Part shown: positions 17,658 through 21,671 of the stretch, piece by piece | How the letters are laid out: every line of letters begins with the position of its first letter | Position numbering within the stretch: position 1 is the first letter of the stretch | NCBI GenBank assembly: GCA_017396555.1 | Contig: JAFQLS010000047.1 | Coordinates: 1 to 36,775, forward strand | DNA: 36,775 bases | Reading direction: 5' to 3' | DNA from: Lachnospiraceae bacterium | GTDB lineage: Bacteria; Bacillota; Clostridia; Lachnospirales; Lachnospiraceae | Translations under genes and position numbers: made by a program | The notes under the pieces: generated by a model | The model's database searches: none | Told to the model about the DNA's origin: nothing | What the model saw: only the letters and a program-made list of their open reading frames with translations

Positions 17658-17688
17658 TATGGCACAGTTACTCTGTAACTGTGCCATA
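17658..17688. terminator. Bidirectional hairpin between HAD and rhodanese genes
   Basis: ATGGCACAGTTA (17659-17670) is the perfect complement of TAACTGTGCCAT (17676-17687) with a 5-nt loop. It serves convergent genes. Its arms contain the last codons and stop of the reverse-strand rhodanese gene (stop at 17668-17670). T-runs are weak on both sides, so termination efficiency is uncertain. Confidence 0.65.
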
Positions 17689-18087
17689 TGTCCAATCAAT
17701 AATACCACCAAATTCTTTGACGTTAGTGTATCCAAGTTCTGCAAGGTCTTTTGAAACGTTTTTACTTCTTCTGCCACTTCGACAATAAACAAGTATTAGT
17801 TGATCTTTGTCTGTAAGCATACTGCTAGCCTTTTCTTTAATTTCATAATCAGGTATTAATAGAGCTCCTTTAATATGTCCAGCGTTATATTCCTCATCTG
17901 TGCGAACATCGAGGATGATATAGTTTTCTTCGCTATCCATAAGCTCTTTGGCTTTTTCGGGAGTAATTTGCTCGTAATCATTCTTAGAATCAGATGAACT
18001 TTCTTCTGCATTTTCAGGAGATGAACAACTAGAAAATACAAAAATTCCAAGTAATAAAATTAAAATAAGATATATATTTCGTCCCAT
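17668..18087 (-). CDS. Rhodanese-like domain lipoprotein
   Basis: A 139-aa exported protein. The N-terminus (MGRNIYLILILLLGIFVFSSC) is a signal peptide with a lipobox ending in Cys at about 21, followed by a Ser/Glu-rich linker (22-40). The rhodanese domain shows ILDVRTDEEYNAGHIKGALL and the active loop VYCRSGRRSKN with the catalytic Cys, ending FGGIIDWTYG. Such domains transfer sulfane sulfur or sense oxidants; here it is tethered outside the membrane. I chose ATG 18087 because AAGGAG lies seven bases upstream; ATG 18093 is too close to that site. It is divergent from the Fic gene. Confidence 0.9.
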   Translation of the reverse strand: MGRNIYLILILLLGIFVFSSCSSPENAEESSSDSKNDYEQITPEKAKELMDSEENYIILDVRTDEEYNAGHIKGALLIPDYEIKEKASSMLTDKDQLILVYCRSGRRSKNVSKDLAELGYTNVKEFGGIIDWTYGTVTE

Positions 18088-18193
18088 CAACATTCTCCTT
18101 AATATGGTATTTCTATAATAATGTATTATAGCGCTAATGGTGACGTTAGTATATAATAGAATTGAAAATTTTAAAAATAAGGGAGTAAAATTA

Positions 18194-18222
18194 TTGTTTT
18201 TTGCCCATATAATAGGTATAAT
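18194..18222 (+). promoter_or_regulatory. Probable promoter of the Fic gene
   Basis: TTGTTT (18194-18199), a 17-nt spacer and a perfect TATAAT (18217-18222) lie 48 nt before the Fic start codon. Confidence 0.5.
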
Positions 18223-18225
18223 AAA

Positions 18226-18261
18226 GCAAGATAATAAGTAAGATAATAAGCAAGATAGGAG
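18226..18261. repeat. 12-nt tandem repeat in the Fic 5' leader
   Basis: Three units in a row: GCAAGATAATAA (18226-18237), GTAAGATAATAA (18238-18249) and GCAAGATAGGAG (18250-18261). The third unit supplies the Shine-Dalgarno sequence AGGAG of the Fic gene. A change in unit number would alter leader length. Confidence 0.7.
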
Positions 18262-18269
18262 GTGCATGA

Positions 18270-19262
18270 ATGAGTGATTATATTCCACCGTTTAAGATAA
18301 CAAATGAAATATTATCCTATGTAGCTTCAATTTCTGAAAAAATCGGAAGGATTTCAGTAGTCAATAATTTAGCAGCAAAACCACATCTTAGAAGAAATAA
18401 CAGAATAAAATCTATTCATTCATCATTAAAAATAGAGGCGAACTCACTCACGCTTAGTCAGGTAAGGGATGTTATTAATGGTAAGTTTGTACTTGGAGAG
18501 CAAAAGGAAATACAAGAAGTAAAGAATGCTTATGCAGCTTATGATAAGATAAAAGATATTGATCCATATAGTATTAAGTCGTTAAAAGAGTTTCATGGAA
18601 TAATGGCTAGATATGTTGTTTCTGAATCGGGAGATTTTAGACAAGGTGAAGAAGGCGTTTTTTATGGAGATGCATGCATTTTTATGTGTCCTCCTGCTAG
18701 TTTTGTACCAAGGCAAATGGAAGAACTATTTGCTTGGATGAATGTGCATAGAGAAGATATACATCCACTTATATTGAGTAGCATATTCCATTATGAATTT
18801 GTATTTATTCATCCATTTTCAGATGGTAATGGAAGAATGGCAAGGTTATGGCATACAGCCATTTTGTCGCAATGGAAGTCAATATTTGAGTATATCCCTA
18901 TAGAGAGTCAGGTCGAGAAGTTTCAAGATGATTATTATGAAGCTATTGCAAGATGTCATGTGCAGGGAGAATCGACAATATTTATAGAATTTATGCTTGA
19001 ACAGATAGATAAAATCTTAGATGAAATTGCGGGACAAGTGTCAGATGGCTCTGAGTATATGACAGAATATCTTAAGAGAATGCTTGATGTGATGGAATAC
19101 GATGTGCCTTACACATCCGTTGCAATTATGGAGATGCTTGGTCTTAAATCAAAAGAAACATTTCGTAAAAATTATATGAATCCTGCATTGAAGCACAATC
19201 TTGTAAAAATGACCCTTCCGGATAAACCTAATAGTAAAAATCAAAGATATATAAAATTTTAA
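18270..19262 (+). CDS. Fic family protein (putative AMP-transferase) with C-terminal winged helix
   Basis: A 330-aa Fic-domain protein. The signature HPFSDGNGRMAR (around 189-200) is complete, including the catalytic His and the Gly-Asn-Gly-Arg anion site, so it should be catalytically competent. Fic proteins transfer AMP or other phospho-moieties from nucleotides to target side chains. An upstream helix SSLKIEANSLT matches the class II inhibitory motif in its Ser and Glu, with Ala rather than Gly after Glu. The N-terminal Fic_N-like helices cover about 1-100, and the last ~80 residues (from about 250) look like a winged helix-turn-helix (VAIMEMLGLKSKETFRKNYM). AGGAGG precedes ATG 18270. No antitoxin gene is adjacent, so it probably regulates itself. 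Confidence 0.93.
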   Translation: MSDYIPPFKITNEILSYVASISEKIGRISVVNNLAAKPHLRRNNRIKSIHSSLKIEANSLTLSQVRDVINGKFVLGEQKEIQEVKNAYAAYDKIKDIDPYSIKSLKEFHGIMARYVVSESGDFRQGEEGVFYGDACIFMCPPASFVPRQMEELFAWMNVHREDIHPLILSSIFHYEFVFIHPFSDGNGRMARLWHTAILSQWKSIFEYIPIESQVEKFQDDYYEAIARCHVQGESTIFIEFMLEQIDKILDEIAGQVSDGSEYMTEYLKRMLDVMEYDVPYTSVAIMEMLGLKSKETFRKNYMNPALKHNLVKMTLPDKPNSKNQRYIKF

Positions 19263-20035: not shown

Positions 20036-20080
20036 CTTTGCTAAGGTTTGAGATTATTCTATTAGAGAATTAAATATTTG

Positions 20081-20248
20081 AATCAGGTGTCAGAAGAACT
20101 CATTAAGAGTTGGTTCTGGTGAAAAGGGAAACAGGTGCAAGTCCTGTACGAACTCGTCACCGTAATTAGGGAGCTAAGCCGATATATCACTGGGAAACTG
20201 GGAAGATGGCGGATGCGATGAACTATAAGCCGGGAGACCTGCCTGATT
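20081..20248 (+). promoter_or_regulatory. Cobalamin (B12) riboswitch aptamer
   Basis: The hallmark B12-box AGCCGGGAGACCTGCC spans about 20228-20243. Upstream features match the class: an initial stem with AATCAGG (20081-20087) pairing with CCTGATT (20242-20248), AAGGGAAACAGGTGCAAGTC at about 20135, CTCGTCACCGTA and a CACTGGGAAACTGGGAAGAT segment. AdoCbl or another cobalamin would be the ligand. Downstream lie an AGCG hairpin, CTATCTTGTTAGAGATAG and a terminator, which together form the expression platform. Confidence 0.93.
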
Positions 20249-20333
20249 TTAAGTACATAAGCGTAAGCTTGATGCCACGAGTAATTGGTTGTACATGAGT
20301 CTATCTTGTTAGAGATAGTTATGTTTGAGTGGT

Positions 20334-20363
20334 AGAGAGTTATCGTTTTGATAACTCTTTTTT
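20334..20363 (+). terminator. Riboswitch-controlled terminator
   Basis: GAGTTATC (20337-20344) pairs with GATAACTC (20350-20357) around GTTTT and is followed by six Ts. It lies between the B12 aptamer and the first gene, the right place to turn the operon off when cobalamin is bound. Confidence 0.88.
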
Positions 20364-20392
20364 AATTCGGTATTTTGAGCAAAGGAGGTAAA

Positions 20393-20647
20393 ATGGAAAA
20401 TTCATATAAGTATTTTGAAAATCGAAATTGTGAATATTATCCGTGTCATTCAGGAGCACAGAACATAAATTGTCTGTTCTGTTATTGCCCGTTATATAGC
20501 ATGGAAAAATGTCCGGGGAATTATAAATATATTGAAGTAAACGGGAAGAAAATCAAAGAATGTACAGATTGTACATTCCCACATAAGTCGGAAAATTATG
20601 ATAAAATAATATGTATTTTAAAGGAGAAAAACAAAAATGAGATTTAG
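20393..20647 (+). CDS. Cysteine-rich small-domain protein of a B12 operon
   Basis: An 84-aa protein with many Cys in zinc-finger-like spacing. Key motifs are YKYFENRNCEYYPCH, NCLFCYCPLYSMEKCPGNY and ECTDCTFPHKSENYDKI. These match the cysteine-rich small domain (zf-like, PF04071) often found next to or fused to cobalamin biosynthesis and salvage genes. Its biochemical role is not established; metal binding is likely. The true start is ATG 20393 after AAAGGAGG; an upstream in-frame start includes that site and is rejected. It is the first gene after the cobalamin riboswitch and overlaps the next gene by 11 nt. Confidence 0.88.
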   Translation: MENSYKYFENRNCEYYPCHSGAQNINCLFCYCPLYSMEKCPGNYKYIEVNGKKIKECTDCTFPHKSENYDKIICILKEKNKNEI

Positions 20648-21095
20648 TGTAAATAAGAAAATTAGTTCATGGTTAATTTGTATGATGCTTGTAGTAACTA
20701 TGGCATTCATGGTAGTAGGATGTGGAAAAAATGACACAGAAAATACTACTACAACTGAGTCACAGAGTGCTTCAGAGGAATCAAAAGTAACTGTATTAGG
20801 CGAAGGTAATACAAAGTTTGCATTTACAGTTGTTGATAAAGATGGTAACGAAACTGAATTTGAAATCAATACAGACAAGGAAACTGTTGGAGATGCCTTA
20901 TTAGAGGTTGAATTAATTGAAGGAGAAGAAAGCGAATATGGCTTGTATGTTAAGAAGGTAAATGGAATTACAGCAGACTATGATAAAGATCAGACATATT
21001 GGGCATTTTATGTAAATGGTGAATATGCATCTTCAGGTGTTGACACAACAACTATTGAAAATGGCGCTGAATATATGTTTAAAGTAGAAAAATAA
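20637..21095 (+). CDS. DUF4430 (transcobalamin-like) lipoprotein
   Basis: A 152-aa exported protein. The N-terminus is a basic stretch, a hydrophobic helix and a lipobox MVVGC with lipid Cys at about 29, then a Thr/Ser/Glu-rich linker. From about 50 a beta-rich domain runs through FAFTVVDKDGNETEFEINTD, TVGDALLEV, YGLYVKKVNGI and YWAFYVNGEYASSGVDTTTI, ending in ENGAEYMFKVEK. This is the DUF4430 pattern, related to the C-terminal domain of transcobalamin and intrinsic factor. Under a cobalamin riboswitch and directly before an ECF S component, it is likely an outside B12-capture lipoprotein (inferred). AAGGAG precedes ATG 20637, and the stop overlaps the next start (TAATG). Confidence 0.88.
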   Translation: MRFSVNKKISSWLICMMLVVTMAFMVVGCGKNDTENTTTTESQSASEESKVTVLGEGNTKFAFTVVDKDGNETEFEINTDKETVGDALLEVELIEGEESEYGLYVKKVNGITADYDKDQTYWAFYVNGEYASSGVDTTTIENGAEYMFKVEK

Positions 21096-21613
21096 TGAAA
21101 TTATCAGTTAGAGAAACAGTTATATTTGGTATGCTTGGTGCAGTGATGTATGCATCTAAAATTATTATGGAAGCATTACCTAATATACATTTATTAGGAG
21201 TATTTACAATAGCATTTACAATTGTGTATAGAAAAAAAGCGCTATATCCCATTTATACATATGTTTTTATAAATGGAATATATAGTGGTTTTGCTACATG
21301 GTGGATTCCGTATTTGTATTTGTGGACGGTTCTTTGGGGAGTAACAATGTTGCTTCCTAAGAAAATGCCGAAAAAGATAAAGCCTATAGTATTTATGGTG
21401 ATAAATGCTTTGCATGGCTTTTTATACGGTGCACTTTATGCACCGGCACAGGCAATTTTATTTGGTTTAAGCTTTGATGGAATGGTAGCATGGATAATAG
21501 CAGGACTTCCGTTCGATTTTATTCACGGAGTGAGTAATTTCTTTTGTGGTATGTTGATTTTACCTATCGCAAGTCTGCTGCTAAAGCTTGAGAGAGTTAG
21601 TAATAGAAGATGA
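21095..21613 (+). CDS. ECF transporter S component, probably for cobalamin or precursor
   Basis: A 172-aa membrane protein with about five to six helices (around 8-25, 32-48, 50-70, 73-88, 100-125 and 140-163). The N-terminus VRETVIFGMLGAVMYASK fits the S-component start that contacts EcfT (alanine/glycine-rich first helix). No ATPase or EcfT genes are in the window, so it would use a shared energy module. The riboswitch and the DUF4430 partner point to a corrinoid as substrate. CbrT-type cobalamin S components and CblT alpha-ribazole transporters are known, and I cannot tell which is closer. The start overlaps the DUF4430 stop by one base. A terminator follows. Confidence 0.8.
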   Translation: MKLSVRETVIFGMLGAVMYASKIIMEALPNIHLLGVFTIAFTIVYRKKALYPIYTYVFINGIYSGFATWWIPYLYLWTVLWGVTMLLPKKMPKKIKPIVFMVINALHGFLYGALYAPAQAILFGLSFDGMVAWIIAGLPFDFIHGVSNFFCGMLILPIASLLLKLERVSNRR

Positions 21614-21617
21614 TATA

Positions 21618-21671
21618 AAATGTTATGGTTATTTTGATGGAATCGTGATAAAATAGCCATAGCATTTTTTG
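21618..21671 (+). terminator. Terminator of the B12 operon
   Basis: AAATGTTATGGTTATTTT pairs with AAAATAGCCATAGCATTT, apart from G-T pairs, around a 15-nt loop and ends in a T-run. It lies a few bases after the ECF S-component stop and before dnaE. Confidence 0.88.

Follow-up and report, generated by a model that had tools for sequence, protein, structure and literature searches.

A candidate corrinoid import operon of a Lachnospiraceae bacterium pairs a transcobalamin-like lipoprotein with a CbrT-family ECF S component, and its relatives carry a variant cobalamin riboswitch

A compact operon of a Lachnospiraceae bacterium (assembly GCA_017396555.1, contig JAFQLS010000047.1) probably encodes an ECF-type corrinoid importer that relies on a shared energy module, has its own surface capture lipoprotein, and is repressed by vitamin B12. 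The operon lies in the 36,775-nucleotide stretch of DNA that we analyzed as a whole (here, the window) and is a real member of a conserved, previously predicted kind of unit, a B12-controlled CbrT-type ECF corrinoid importer that includes a transcobalamin-like lipoprotein. The new part is regulatory and is located in the relatives, as a variant of the riboswitch.

The initial annotation had read positions 20041..21671 as an aptamer, a terminator, three overlapping genes (for a Cys-rich small protein, a lipoprotein, and an S component), and a closing terminator. This layout is correct, and scans and sequence bear out every element of it, including gene overlaps of 11 nt (Cys-rich protein/lipoprotein) and 1 nt (lipoprotein/S component) (Table 1). 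A terminator scan of the window found 4 sites versus 2.6 expected in shuffles, the attenuator hairpin among them, and the stretch around it (20295-20370) folds at z -4.3; the closing terminator was absent from the output of this simple scan. Promoter scans of the window gave 23 sites versus 28.7 in shuffles, i.e., below the shuffled level. A chance origin of the unit is ruled out by the RF00174 and Pfam matches, the conserved pairing, the CbrT profile match, and the terminator fold. By ORF inspection, the gene that follows the operon resembles dnaE. Upstream, on the minus strand (17668-18288), the window encodes a rhodanese-domain protein with an apparent lipoprotein signal.

TABLE 1 Features of the candidate corrinoid import operon (positions in the window)
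Feature	Position	Strand	Evidence
Class I cobalamin riboswitch aptamer, canonical B12 box AAGCCGGGAGACCTGCC	20068-20260	+	RF00174 107.2 bits, gathering score 31.5, E 4e-26
L13-like element CCACGAGTAATTGG	20275..20288	+	ACGAGU at 20277-20282 complementary to L5 ACUCGU at 20152-20157
Attenuator/intrinsic terminator before first gene	20334..20363	+	hairpin 20334-20360, then T's
Cys-rich small protein	20393-20647	+	84 aa, PF04071 zf-like, E 4.6e-23
DUF4430 lipoprotein	20637-21095	+	152 aa, PF14478 44.9 bits versus cut-off 23.8
CbrT-family ECF S component	21095-21613	+	172 aa, profile match to 6fnp_A
Closing intrinsic terminator	21617-21668	+	-20.9 kcal/mol, z -5.67, 0/200 shuffles as good

From its sequence, the aptamer is a class I cobalamin riboswitch, for which corrinoid binding and switching are predicted. 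It is the sole RF00174 match found in the source genome (2.34 Mb, 57 contigs, 85% complete). The B12-box/junction sequence GGAGACC of the Rfam consensus is kept in the window and its 13 aligned classic relatives (14/14). Complementarity of L5 and L13 is the usual kissing-loop pair of cobalamin riboswitches; in the window this loop is supported by sequence complementarity, both of its sides hardly vary in 14 classic sequences, and ACGAG lies 3' of the aptamer in all 14 classic riboswitches examined.

The lipoprotein carries a lipobox (VVGC, by inspection), a low-confidence linker, and a beta-grasp domain from about residue 52, modeled by AF2 at a pLDDT of 96 to 98 over residues 51-152. Structure prediction upheld the proposed relation of DUF4430 to a transcobalamin domain: the model adopts the beta-domain fold of transcobalamin, intrinsic factor, and haptocorrin, scoring far above unrelated folds, at a sequence identity to these carriers of 12 to 19%. 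Pfam match and fold together place the protein in the DUF4430/transcobalamin beta-domain (SLBB) family. Burroughs et al. defined a transcobalamin-like SLBB clade of bacteria in 2007, noting signal peptides as well as operons with a CbiO-like ATPase and a CbiQ-like protein; they suggested that such proteins scavenge B12 or precursors of it (PMC1796856). The DUF4430 protein LGG_02295/LRHMDP2_2713 of L. rhamnosus has been named "Additional lipoprotein component of putative cobalamin ECF transporter" (PMC9963975). Among the open-access papers that we found, none reported corrinoid binding or transport by a bacterial DUF4430 protein.

The S component by itself matched nothing over the Pfam or NCBIfam cut-offs. 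Profile A2, searched against the PDB, found a sole sequence at E ≤ 1, 6fnp_A (E 1.2e-16), which the window protein alone matched at E 0.026. Its AF2 model (pLDDT 94.7) looks compatible with an ECF S-component fold; Foldseek returned nothing at E ≤ 0.001 and 6FNP is missing from the VIA-align list, so membership in the CbrT family rests on sequence. The ECF S component of the initial annotation can thus be named more closely as a CbrT-family protein, with Cbl and Cbi as its predicted substrates. ECF-CbrT of Lactobacillus delbrueckii, a demonstrated importer of both Cbl and Cbi, complements an uptake-deficient E. coli strain (PMC5997447). Several genomes contain CbrT-like stretches within open frames of 812 to 907 aa (for example, G550:C3, G491:C3, and G307:C40), possibly S components fused to other parts.

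The shared EcfA/EcfA'/EcfT module that a CbrT-type importer requires is present in the genome. EcfT (PF02361, 174 bits) adjoins an ECF ATPase (TIGR04521, 389 bits versus a cut-off of 330), falls under the cut-off of the cobalt-specific TIGR02454 (89.7 versus 111.8 bits), and sits with the ATPase beside rplM and truA (neighbors by inspection). A MetH-like ORF with a B12-binding domain scores 413 bits over a 621-residue part, below the full-length cut-off of 1010.85. The second PF02310 match of the genome (L114, 22 bits, below cut-off) was rejected as a B12 enzyme, as its ORF reads by eye as IMP-dehydrogenase-like. A search for FecCD-family permeases (BtuC) gave no match in the 85% complete genome, with 13 of 14 controls detected; at that completeness the absence is weak evidence. 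The genome therefore encodes an energizing module and a corrinoid consumer. As no classical permease turned up in this 85% complete sequence, a BtuFCD-like system was rejected. Fold, CbrT family, pairing, ECF module, and the lack of a FecCD match all favor the proposed lipoprotein-assisted corrinoid uptake; its novelty is not supported, as the idea appears in the work of Burroughs et al. (PMC1796856) and in the L. rhamnosus annotation (PMC9963975).

A survey of how DUF4430, the S component, and B12 riboswitches co-occur was largely positive. We kept the best 80 of 157 loci from a contig scan for S relatives. Their labels mostly name Lachnospiraceae or other Clostridia; one locus is given as Bacillus, two as Bacillota without further rank, and one simply as uncultured bacterium. 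In 79 of these 80 loci, all except L051, the S gene has DUF4430 immediately upstream; with start codons chosen by rule, the gap is at most 10 nt in 59 of the 79 (median 2, longest 139). Across the class, 62 of 291 genomes drawn, the window's own included, encode an S homologue at E ≤ 1e-8. Among the best 30 loci of this set, one is the window itself; DUF4430 stands beside S in 25 of the other 29 (25/28 readable), and is absent in 3 (L162-L164); 1 locus is cut by a contig end (L172). A cobalamin-type riboswitch precedes the pair in 55 of the 80 loci; none was found in the other 25, 4 of which are cut by contig ends, leaving 21 of 76 readable loci without one. Six class-level loci among the more distant ones (L173-L178) show a B12-box pattern upstream.

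The Cys-rich gene is an occasional passenger of the operon: PF04071 occurs in 5 of the best 80 loci (L003, L007, L009, L029, and L067), and because most relatives lack it, its product appears dispensable for the core system. Elsewhere in the class, 33 of 196 genomes have PF04071 genes. We listed the flanking ORFs at 29 loci and ran 10 flanking proteins from seven chosen loci against Pfam, yielding CbiJ (three), CobT (one), CobU (one), and KhpB-type, guanylate-kinase-like, and other proteins. The copies beside CbiJ, CobT, and CobU (L195, L200, and L201) suggest a cobalt or corrinoid role in some genomes; further copies lie beside unrelated genes.

Scanning 79 of the 80 loci (L002-L080) with Rfam gave two kinds of RF00174 match, classic (90.9 to 108.5 bits) and weak (33.0 to 53.5 bits). 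The weak matches are one coherent variant. An alignment of 36 variants (A1) supports 33 base pairs, with 97.8% of cells paired and 22 compensatory pairs versus 8.8 in shuffles and 4 to 8 in slid controls. By inspection, P1 of the variant abuts the P3-P4 core and the P2 hairpin is absent. At one locus (L033), the Rfam alignment shows the junction AGCCAGGAGACC replaced by AGUCGAAAUAUC. When the junction was located by similarity to the variant motif, it was readable in 69 of 72 variant-type sequences: none had GGAGACC, 41 matched AGUCGAAAUAU exactly, 27 had one or two changes relative to it, and one was intermediate (AGUCGAAAGAC). A loop like GCGAGYGCCGG (≤2 mismatches) then follows in 44 of 45 variants. 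RNAalifold missed one variant helix because a subgroup of the sequences is shifted in the alignment; the longest run of pairs between a sequence's own strands averages 7.6, versus 5.2 with the strands of others, and exceeds the others' mean in 56 of 69 sequences (13 were unsupportive, and three of the 72, in which the motifs could not be located, were excluded).

A covariance model built from the RNAs found beside the DUF4430-S operon (R1) scored 45 variants in the 80 loci at 107.6 to 175.8 bits, classic riboswitches at 31.8 to 44.5, and the window at 37.8. A classic riboswitch lies upstream of the pair in 13 loci; in three of these a variant follows behind it (L003:4305-4468, L012:1503-1665, and L018:4269-4432), and 42 further loci carry the variant. 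A classic riboswitch downstream of S at L054 was left out of the counts. Rfam scans gave RF00174 as the best of its clan for the variant RNAs; RF01689 we take to be the AdoCbl-variant riboswitch family. Identity with the AdoCbl riboswitch RF01482 was rejected, with no match at E ≤ 0.001 in 19 genomes (18 variant-bearing plus the window's). Atypical B12 riboswitches of M. tuberculosis are reportedly the subject of one study. Since RF00174 matches most variant RNAs above its cut-off, they may already sit unremarked in its full alignment. Searches of the open-access literature found no description of the variant: cobalamin riboswitch classes I, IIa, and IIb have been named (PMC11477304), 26 AdoCbl doublets have been counted (PMC9481103), and the available part of a further report does not describe this RNA (PMC9600662).

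In wider scans, R1 reached at least 91 bits in 18 of 299 family genomes, at one place each, and in 8 of 391 class genomes, one of them shared with the family set, for 25 genomes in total; at least 3 of the 18 overlap with the first set of loci (L083, L087, and L089). At these scores the variant accompanies the pair almost throughout, with the caveat that R1 derives from RNAs beside this operon: DUF4430 comes next on the same strand in 24 of the 25 loci (in L120 only its first part before the contig ends), and L082 ends before any gene. S follows DUF4430 in 22 of the 23 loci readable that far; at the exception, L121, the variant and DUF4430 have no S behind them. The genome with the truncated DUF4430 gene (G423) has an S gene without DUF4430 on another contig (L164).

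The clean score gap between variant and classic riboswitches in the 80 loci (107.6 versus 44.5) did not survive the wider scans, where 71.6, 63.3, 59.5, 52.5, 50.9, and 50.2 bits fill it. Three of these RNAs precede DUF4430 and S (L122, 71.6; L100, 63.3; L101, 52.5), one precedes a Peripla_BP_2 gene and a FecCD gene, i.e., a btuFC-type pair (L123:1501-1637, 59.5), one precedes CbiM and CbiN (L124:1501-1650, 50.9), and one precedes a protein with a DUF4430 match just below cut-off (L125, 50.2). Mixed junctions occur among them: GGAAUACC in L123 and L124, GAAAGACC in L101 and L122, and AGAAGACC in L125. GGAGACC itself is present in only 3 of 16 low-scoring loci whose junctions were examined (L104, L109, and L110), and 13 depart from it. 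The variant thus sits at one extreme of a range of junction forms. Because partly changed junctions serve ordinary B12 and cobalt transport genes, we argue that the variant still senses a corrinoid, and the spread lowers the odds that its ligand has changed.

Of the 18 variant-bearing family genomes, six have one classic riboswitch each, and scans of the other 12 detected none. In the two of the six that were checked by Pfam (L126 and L127; genomes G048 and G288), the classic switch precedes a CbiK cobaltochelatase-family protein, which has an apparent lipoprotein signal. On a tree of S components (81 rows; weak support at 44 of 78 inner branches), the variant label needs 15 changes, classic-only 8, and no riboswitch 14, of which the starred branches force only 3, 2, and 3. 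The nearest rows to the window include classic, variant, tandem, and riboswitch-free loci. Addition of a classic riboswitch upstream followed by loss of the variant would fit; the tree does not separate gain from loss.

We propose the following mechanism. With corrinoid in ample supply, the class I riboswitch would bind it, the L5-L13 kissing loop would form, and the attenuator hairpin would stop transcription; this course of events is taken from what is known of the family, and the anatomy itself is observed. When corrinoid is scarce, the three proteins would be made. The DUF4430 lipoprotein, lipid anchored through a flexible linker, would hold a corrinoid in its modeled beta-domain and present it to the outward-facing CbrT-like S component, perhaps sandwiched as by the alpha and beta domains of transcobalamin. 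The S component would then dock on the housekeeping EcfA-EcfA-EcfT module, whose genes are present, and the corrinoid would be released inside, for example to the MetH-like methionine synthase. The Cys-rich protein may aid metal or corrinoid handling.

Several observations run counter to this explanation, and some favor other readings. That S imports corrinoid alone while the lipoprotein stores or protects it, or withholds it from competitors, with no hand-over, is doubtful in our judgment, although it deserves weight: the L. delbrueckii transporter works, and the available part of its report mentions no lipoprotein (PMC5997447), so the lipoprotein may be an accessory or have another role. S also occurs without adjacent DUF4430 in L051 and L162-L164, as does DUF4430 without S in L121. 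Against this reading, the two genes adjoin in nearly all of the 80 loci, mostly with short gaps, which argues for joint action though not for contact. The readable loci without a cobalamin riboswitch likewise weigh against the proposed importer, as does the different ligand that Burroughs et al. suggest for archaeal members (PMC1796856).

Instead of cobalamin itself, the cargo could be a corrinoid precursor or a different corrinoid (cobinamide, pseudo-B12, or another cobamide). Cobinamide is bound by CbrT and by isolated TC-beta (PMC5997447, PMC5599065), and many relatives have the changed-junction riboswitch; the window aptamer, however, is canonical, and partly changed junctions also precede btuFC-type and cbiMN genes, so that such a change is not in itself a sign of a different ligand, and we regard this reading as unlikely. 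We hold a more elaborate scenario for the relatives to be quite improbable, namely that a distinct variant lacking P2, with GGAGACC changed to AAAUAUC, took over service of the DUF4430 unit and senses a different corrinoid or axial-ligand state, that tandems give two-input control of uptake, and that lipoprotein and S act as a split transcobalamin closing on the corrinoid. Least of all do we expect B12 to be only the repressor of a unit whose cargo is a metal ion or another metal tetrapyrrole. In favor of this reading, the depositors of the DUF4430 structure 3u7z labeled it a putative metal-binding protein, the Cys-rich protein looks metal binding, and an ECF heme importer exists (PMC7299338), but among PDB S components the S profile picks out CbrT alone, and the DUF4430 model resembles B12 carriers much more closely than unrelated folds.

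With corrinoid import by lipoprotein and S component together as the preferred reading, the unit is a widely conserved candidate corrinoid importer of gut-type Clostridia, whose lipoprotein, S component, and shared module are each open to expression and assay. Through it, a bacterial surface domain in its functional setting is connected with the B12 carriers of mammals, which opens the 2007 proposal to direct tests. Should the ligand of the variant riboswitch differ, the variant would show how bacteria with one common importer tell cobamides apart; should it be the same, it would still show how far a cobalamin aptamer can be rebuilt.

Among known systems, ECF-CbrT of L. delbrueckii (PDB 6FNP) has an S component of the same sequence family and a shared ECF module, and its Cbl/Cbi substrates are expected here; the words "lipoprotein," "riboswitch," and "operon" do not appear in the available part of its description (PMC5997447), whereas the window operon has both a lipoprotein and a riboswitch. 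The operons of the Burroughs SLBB clade, as far as that source is available, hold CbiO- and CbiQ-like genes, in contrast to the lone S component, ECF module elsewhere, and riboswitch control seen here. The L. rhamnosus protein has the same domain and the same proposed role as the window lipoprotein; its gene neighbors rtpR (an AdoCbl-dependent reductase), and its description, in the part available, mentions neither a riboswitch nor an S component (PMC9963975). BtuFCD, also a capture lipoprotein with an ATP-driven importer, would be alike in function, although its proteins are unrelated to those of the window unit. Transcobalamin, intrinsic factor, and haptocorrin share the beta-domain fold of DUF4430 and possess an alpha domain that the lipoprotein lacks.
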